Of a stretch of DNA of 64,000 nucleotides, positions 47,201 to 50,200 are shown piece after piece. Where the stretch lies: the NCBI GenBank assembly GCA_029964075.1, contig CM057134.1, positions 19,508,905 to 19,572,904 of the forward strand, read 5' to 3'. The notes below the pieces were generated by a model. That model was not told the origin of the DNA. It made no database searches and saw only the letters and a program-made list of their open reading frames with translations. Position 1 is the first letter of the stretch; each line of letters begins with the position of its first letter. The translations under genes and the position numbers were made by a program. This DNA is from Patiria pectinifera (taxonomy: Eukaryota; Echinodermata; Asteroidea; Valvatida; Asterinidae).

Positions 47201-50200
47201 CCGAATTGCTATTTTCCTAGAAAATAAGGAAAGAATGTTGCAACCTGACGCTGTTTTTTCTTCATATATCATCTCAATGAAGGCCAGTCATTGCAAAAAT
47301 GATGATAAGACATGAATCTGGGACTGAGAAACATTTCCAAAATTTTTCTTGACTCTCCATAGACTTTGTACTCAACTGCTGAAGTATCGTCAGGTTGTAA
47401 CATTCTTTCCGAAAATAAAAGTTATTCACTTTTGAATTAGACATCTAACAAAAAATTCACTGACGTGAAAATTCACTGACTGGAAGGTTGTGTGGTACTG
47501 ATTTGAATGTGTTTTTGTGTACCTGGTCTTGGGGGCAGGTGAAGTGGTTGAGCTAGGGACAATCTTCCTTTCAAGTCCTGCCATCTGCGCTGGTCAATGG
47601 TTAACAATGACGTACCCTGGTAACACAAACAAACACACGAGTGAGGAATATGTAAACATCGTGCGGCCATATTTCTTCATTTAAATATAATTAAATATCA
47701 TTCACATGAATTGATACATAAACTAATCGGTACCTGTACTACATTGTATTACATTGTATCAGTACATGTATTTATTCCTTGATGAATCCATAAAGTGCTG
47801 GGGCATTGTGGGATGGTACAGAGAGTAACAGGCAGGGCGGTTGGGGGCGGTACAGGGAACGCATCCCTGCAGCTATCCAAAAAGTAACTGACGTAGTTGT
47901 TGTTGGAAAGCATATACTTGGCTGAAAGATAGTAAGGGGACTAAACTCCCTGTAAAATTATTCTTACTGGCAAGCTGTCATTTGAAGAAATCAATAAAAA
48001 AAGGCCTTTCCAACGATGCATCTTTAGTAGTTCATTTTTCTATTTGGCAAAGCATGCGCAAGCATTGACATGACGCACACGCGCGTGCGGTTGCTATAAT
48101 TCATCGGATCAGTGCGCAACATCGCGTAGCTGCAATTGGCTCAGTGAGAACGCGTATTGGACGCTGAATTCAGGCCCAATTCAAAACAGGATTGGTCAAT
48201 CCATGGCAACAACAGTGTGGCATTATCTCATACTATAGTCCACATCGCACTCCATCATACATTCTAAGACGCGCACGCTATTCCTACTGCGCGCACGTGT
48301 AATAGGATAACTGCTGAAGAGTTTGTGTACAGCGTGCAAATTCCATCTTTACTGTAAGACAAGATTGCTTGAAGATAAATTTATTTGCCCACTCGCACTC
48401 ATGGAACACGGCAAATGTAGTGCGTCTGTGTCCCTTATGCTACTCGGCTGACCCAAACACACATTATTCTGTGTTCCACTCGTGCACCTGAAAATAATTA
48501 ATGTAATTAATGATATACGCCAACAGATTGATACCTTGCTCTCAAAGTAGTTAGTGATGACCACTCCGACAAATAGAGTCAGTCCAATCATACAACCGAT
48601 GAAGACGAAGATGTGGATATAGACGGCGTGCCACTGTAACAATAGAGACAAAAATACATTGATATTACAATATTTCTGGAAATTTTACAGTGGTAGAGGT
48701 TTTGTTATTGTTTTAGGGAAATAAGGACATCTATTGTCCTAACAGCGTCTTGGGTCCCCACTACAGACAATGAATGTGTGTGGGCATGTATATCCATGCA
48801 ATAGTGGACCTTGAACAAAACTAGACTATAGTGTCCACGATTGGGTGAAGGTCTACAGTTTGGATATCATACACAAAAGTAAACAGGGTGAGTCAAAAAG
48901 AAAGTGACCGAATTAGAAAAAATCTTTTAAAGATATGTGGGTCACTCCATTTCATACATACGCCAGAGGGATAAAGTACATGTTATTGACTAGTAACTGT
49001 GAAAATTTCATGTAATTTACATATTTTATTTCCACGTTATGTCTTTAAGATCATAAAATTCAGTCGTCCACCATTGATCATTTAGTTCCCACACACACAA
49101 ACTTGTGCATTTGTTTATGGTATAAATCGAGGACACACACGTGTAACATCATCAGTGAATCGAGGACAGGAACCAAATCAAGGACGACCTCGATTAGAAA
49201 ATGTGTACAAAACCAATGAGAGCTGTTGCAAAAAGGTTAGAGTACAAACAAAGGAAAAGGGAAGAGGAACAAAAGGAAATCCTCGATTTACATCATAACA
49301 AAATGTGCTAGTGTGTGTGTGAATAGGTATGTCCATTCCATAGGGGTCCTTGAACAAAACTAGACAATAGGGTCCACGATTGGGTGAAGGTCCACAGTTG
49401 GAAATCACACACCAAACTGTAGGGGGTTCTTTCCAAAAAGTTTAAGGATATCAACAACAAAAGGACAATATGAGGTCAACAATGGAAGTTGTTTTACATT
49501 TGTGTGTGTTGGTAGGTATCCGCATTATAGTGGACCTTGAACAATAGAGGACAATAGGGTCCACAATTAAATGAAGGTCCACAGTTGGAAATTGTGTACA
49601 AAACCAATGAAGGTTCAACCAAAAAAGTAGAAACAATACTCACCAATGTGCATTTCTCAATGATGATATCTCGGACCTCCAACCACCCCTCCAGAGACAA
49701 GACCTCAAACAGAGCCAGCATGGCGTTAGCCAGATTGTCAAAGTCAAAGTTACGAGGGTTAGCCCTACAAAGGAAAACAAGGAGGGATGAAATATTGATT
49801 GAAAATTAAACAGAAGGAAATGAAAACAATTTAAGTAAGAATATACCAAAAACAAAGACTGCAATTGTACCCTAACTCCATAGGGGGTGTGCAAAATCGT
49901 ATTAAACTTGGACGATTCAGGACTCTTAGGGCAACTTTACTCCATTTGCCTCGTCAAATAAACACCTCCAAAAAAGAAAGTCCACACATTGGAGGCAACA
50001 TAATTTTGAATCTGATCGTCTTTTGAGGACGTCACATCTTTGGGGAATTATTTTAAGCTACATTTTTATGCCCTACTTGTTACCTAAGACTTTGAATTGT
50101 CCAAGATTGACAACGGTTTATGAACAACGGTGCAGTTTGAAAAGTTGCAATTTAAGAGATACGCAAGGAGAAATTTCTCAGCGTGCAAACATAAATGCCC

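Follow-up and report, generated by a model that had tools for sequence, protein, structure and literature searches.

Human NALCN has the filter E280/E554/K1115/E1389, in which K1115 is the residue of repeat III (PMC7672056). An earlier note on the NALCN gene of the asteroid Patiria pectinifera, made from the letters of the DNA, had reported glutamate in place of this lysine and suggested that the filter switch of some invertebrate NALCN genes may be absent here. The locus raises the question of whether this gene can choose between filters and, if so, in which repeat. We analyzed the locus in a window, by which we mean the whole stretch of 64,000 nt that was examined (C6:19508905-19572904), and in the assembly to which it belongs (613.5 Mb in 1020 contigs). 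Searches of the assembly score the best candidates only, and absence from them is not proof.

The gene and its repeat III pore

NALCN lies on the minus strand of the window and extends from the S6 exon of repeat II to at least the conserved C-terminal exon (Table 1). The gene model comprises 20 exons, all with a GT donor and 18 of them with an AG acceptor; the two exon starts to which the model assigns no acceptor are near 45541 and 38839. The cytoplasmic linker between repeats II and III, which shows low similarity, is modelled in part only. When joined, the exons of repeat III (349 aa) and those from repeat IV to the C-terminus (346 aa) are free of stops and align end to end with residues 880-1585 of human NALCN at about 1055 bits, and all five sequences that this query found at E up to 1e-100 are NALCN. 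Each part also matches Pfam Ion_trans, and the part from repeat IV to the C-terminus has a further match to PKD_channel below the cut-off of that family; these domain matches cover repeats III and IV, and repeats I and II are known from reading their pore exons. Across repeats, the best match is to NALCN over Cav or Nav channels, which places the gene within NALCN. Past the conserved C-terminal exon, the tail of the protein is represented by weak matches at 36245-36358 (E = 0.031) and 35063-35134 (E = 5.1).

The modelled part of the gene shows no signs of a pseudogene. We also saw no second copy of NALCN among the best candidates in the assembly, where the protein from repeat IV to the C-terminus matched six places, five of them in this gene. 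The sixth, C1:10218457-10218786 on the minus strand, has 29% identity to the stretch from the repeat IV pore to S6 (E = 8.2e-10) and probably belongs to a different channel gene with four repeats. No relatives of the protein encoded by the repeat III pore and S6 exons were found in the non-animal collections of viral contigs and genome contigs, and Rfam and tRNA scans of the whole window gave no matches. Searching the assembly for the COX1 family likewise returned nothing.

Several repeats lie in and around the gene. A minisatellite of 75-nt units (38863-39366, 6.7 copies) is located between the NALCN exons 39415-39530 and 38679-38839, and a second one of 106-nt units (35166-35994, 8 copies) adjoins the weaker of the two C-terminal matches. 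An array of about 40 copies of an 11-mer (AGTCCATCACA) occupies 63123-63564, in the intron that follows the S6 exon of repeat II. Elsewhere in the window, a tandem array of 147-nt units occupies 8486-9385 (6.1 copies), and the translation of an open stretch on the minus strand at 18117-18500 looks like part of a retrotransposon integrase.

The repeat III pore is encoded by an exon of 121 nt, with tttgtag as its acceptor and gtgagt as its donor; the codon at its filter position (49691-49689) is GAG, for glutamate. A 73-aa peptide comprising the pore exon and the adjoining S6 exon matched human NALCN 1091-1163 in a phmmer search of PDB sequences with E = 2.2e-33, versus 2.9e-09 for the best Cav channel. 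In this alignment the glutamate stands opposite the lysine of human SLKGW, which is K1115, and translation and alignment together confirm the residue that the earlier note had described. The note had also stated that repeat IV retains GEDW, and the exon concerned indeed reads TGEDW.

Table 1. Coordinates of NALCN features in the window and in the adjoining upstream DNA of C6
Feature	Position	Strand	Evidence
Repeat II E exon (15a type), LTQEGW	C6:19576102-19576239 = window numbering 67198-67335	-	upstream DNA
Repeat II K exon (15b type), LTQKGW	C6:19575127-19575264 = window numbering 66223-66360	-	upstream DNA
Repeat II S6 exon, joining partner of either candidate repeat II pore exon	63667..63812	-	
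Repeat III S1-S2 exon	53704..53875	-	
Repeat III S3 exon	52650..52790	-	
Repeat III S4-S5 exon	51641..51853	-	
Repeat III extracellular turret exon, ending ...FLVPRVW, W codon split by intron	50696..50796	-	
Intron 5' of pore exon, with dispersed palindromic element 49988-50539	49765..50695	-	
Repeat III pore exon, equivalent of exon 31, LSLEGW	49644..49764	-	translation, phmmer, exon model
Intron 3' of pore exon, with diverged repeats of ~100 nt	48634..49643	-	
Repeat III S6 exon	48535..48633	-	
Repeat IV pore exon, TGEDW, E at filter position	41253..41346	-	
Repeat IV S6 exon, first part	40455..40587	-	
Conserved C-terminal exon	37835..37985	-	

Search for a second repeat III pore exon

In myriapods and chelicerates, NALCN is described as switching between EEEE and EEKE through a pair of repeat III pore exons, 31a and 31b (PMC3557258). 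A switch of this arthropod type would be hidden from us if a lysine-bearing repeat III exon had been missed or had been lost in the assembly. We searched both introns that flank the pore exon by sensitive tblastn, with E- and K-versions of the repeat III pore peptide and the human pore peptides of repeats I, II and III as baits. Neither intron yielded an alternative pore exon, with nothing above 18.9 bits; this top score came from a repeat II bait, whereas among the matches shown the repeat III baits reached 15.4 bits at most, compared with 84.0 bits for the real repeat III exon in a tblastn search of the whole window. These results agree with the earlier note, which had read the same introns and reported no alternative exon carrying lysine.

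The assembly gave a similar picture. At E up to 0.001, the E-version of the repeat III query found two places among the best candidates, both of them the window's own exons. The K-version peptide, at E up to 10, found three: the exon in the window and two matches on C14 with E = 1.53. Neither the introns nor the best candidates in the assembly thus yielded a tandem of repeat III pore exons in which E precedes K, and these same searches leave a single repeat III pore exon, with E. Moreover, a lysine in repeat III combined with the lysine-bearing repeat II exon described below could give EKKE, a filter that is absent among the eight configurations listed in the published survey (PMC3557258). With no second exon found by tblastn in either intron and the K-version search returning only those two matches beyond the exon in the window, we regard an arthropod-type switch as having next to no chance of being correct.

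Both introns contain repeats. In the intron before the pore exon lies a palindromic (fold-back) element of 552 nt, whose arms are 81-91% complementary. Searched against the assembly, this element gave at least 102 matches from the best 40 of 516 candidate places, many of them near full length, on other contigs and with 77-82% identity; it looks like a dispersed MITE-like repeat. The intron after the pore exon holds, at 48801-49628, three diverged copies of a 102-nt sequence, with 70 and 75% identity to the reference copy.

Tandem pore exons in repeat II

Searching the assembly with the human repeat II pore/S6 peptide gave four places among the best candidates, namely two new exons, the S6 exon and one match with E = 3.35. 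The two new exons are both repeat II pore exons of the same gene and are located 2.2 to 3.3 kb past the edge of the window. In gene order, the II-S5 exon is followed by an exon encoding LTQEGW (the E exon), one encoding LTQKGW (the K exon) and, at the window edge, the S6 exon, so that the pair is a tandem of the exon 15 type in which E precedes K. When the gene strand was scanned for pore motifs across the 4.8 kb separating the window edge from the II-S5 exon, only those of the E and K exons were detected. We rejected a different candidate, 63813-63962, which tblastn had joined to the human repeat II pore: this stretch is T-rich intron that happens to be in frame with S6, and the actual pore exons of repeat II are located upstream of it.

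The E and K exons are each 138 nt long, in phase 0 and bordered by AG and GT, and either one runs in frame into the S6 exon. The preceding II-S5 exon, whose end is near C6:19577733, closes with ...NQFKTFPH followed by gtaagt, likewise in phase 0. The two pore exons are identical at 89 of 138 bases and at 28 of 46 residues, with MSMFQILTQ(E/K)GW conserved in both, and the intron that separates them is 837 nt long. The earlier note had advised reading the pores of repeats I and II from the adjoining DNA; on C6 that DNA supplies SLEGW for repeat I in addition to the two versions of repeat II. With LSLEGW in repeat III and TGEDW in repeat IV, the channel has four repeats and a filter of the ExxE type.

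These exons bear on how the glutamate of repeat III is to be read. A gene with EEEE as its only filter, having neither a lysine nor a switch, would account for E in repeats III and IV and for the lack of a K exon in the introns around the repeat III pore. However, the gene also has, downstream of its E exon, a splice-competent LTQKGW exon, which refutes an EEEE-only gene at the gene level and makes this reading extremely unlikely. A sequencing or assembly error could also be proposed, given that GAG and AAG differ by one base and a misread codon would disguise a gene that is really of the EEKE type in repeat III. We attach almost no weight to this explanation, in that a gene possessing a K exon in repeat II is expected to have glutamate here and the modelled coding sequence around the codon is open. 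Finally, one of the two repeat II exons might be a relic, the animal using a single filter in practice, and loss of the EEEE form in single species has been described, for example in the leech Helobdella and in schistosomes (PMC3557258). Both exons nevertheless retain an open frame, the 138-nt length, AG/GT borders and the conserved pore motif, which makes a relic very improbable, if somewhat less so than the other explanations.

Based on these findings, we conclude that the exon in question is almost certainly the sole repeat III pore exon of its gene, an invertebrate NALCN of the EEEE/EKEE kind that looks intact and in which the choice would be made in repeat II. The earlier note had proposed, from the glutamates of repeats III and IV, that the filter is EEEE or EKEE, and the gene can encode both options. 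Its suggestion that the switch may be absent proved wrong, since the E and K exons of repeat II were simply outside the window. Inclusion of the upstream E exon would form an EEEE ring as in Cav1 and Cav2 channels, and inclusion of the downstream K exon would form EKEE, a lysine-bearing filter, from the same gene; repeats I, III and IV would contribute a constant E, with only repeat II varying. The equal length and phase of the two exons, their similarity and published precedent suggest that they are spliced as alternatives in RNA. Because both lengths are multiples of three, use of both exons or of neither would keep the frame, and so the frame cannot enforce the choice; the 837-nt intron also makes it unlikely that the exons block each other by closeness. 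The EEEE and EKEE filters presumably differ in their preference for Na+ and Ca2+, a selectivity for which the authors of the 2013 study describe in vitro confirmation as not achieved (PMC3557258).

Relation to known NALCN types

Published surveys place the filters of NALCN in a few groups. According to Senatore et al. (2013, PMC3557258), EEEE/EKEE genes, in which exon 15a (E) is followed in tandem by exon 15b (K), occur in flatworms, molluscs, annelids, echinoderms and hemichordates; filters free of lysine are found in sponges, placozoans and cnidarians (EEEE or EDEE) and in amphioxus (EEEE alone); and EEKE alone is the state of vertebrates, urochordates, nematodes, insects and crustaceans. 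A second account gives the same scheme in outline (PMC4436565). In both, the ancestral residue of repeat III is given as E, which is also that of the invertebrates that switch through exon 15. The glutamate in the sea star gene is thus the ordinary state in many invertebrates and no sign of a lost switch; it looks odd because it is compared with vertebrate EEKE. The question of the missing switch is answered by its position in repeat II, one more genome is added to those with the EEEE/EKEE arrangement, and the case cautions that, in a channel with four repeats, comparing a single pore exon with the vertebrate filter can lead to wrong conclusions.

The pair of exons also touches on the ancestry of the repeat II exon in vertebrates. 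The 46 residues of the human exon include 31 shared with the K exon and 23 shared with the E exon. At 10 sites the human residue matches just one of the two exons, namely the K exon at nine and the E exon at one, the filter residue itself (9 vs 1, two-sided binomial p = 0.02, for one species and no outgroup). Tentatively, and with the odds against it, the vertebrate exon might descend from 15b rather than from 15a, its lysine having reverted to glutamate while a lysine appeared in repeat III. If so, vertebrate EEKE would reflect a lysine that moved, and repeat II would not have been left untouched. The same distribution of 9 vs 1 sites would arise if 15a had changed faster in this one species.

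Compared with human NALCN (EEKE; PMC7672056; chain 7cm3_A), the gene is orthologous from repeat III through repeat IV into the beginning of the C-terminus, and it differs in having E at the position of residue 1115 and two pore exons in repeat II. With the described genes of the exon 31a/31b type, it shares a repeat III pore in an exon of its own that also encodes the end of the turret; here, in contrast, that exon is single and has E only, and the duplication is in repeat II. The published description of exon 15a/15b genes, from Lymnaea and others (PMC3557258), matches it closely: one gene with tandem repeat II pore exons, E up and K down, each likewise spanning the pore helix, the filter and the start of S6, and a single repeat III exon with E. 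Set against that description, the gene showed no gene-level difference. Taken together, these comparisons identify the locus as an ordinary orthologue of a known NALCN kind, one that fits the EEEE/EKEE type in every testable feature.
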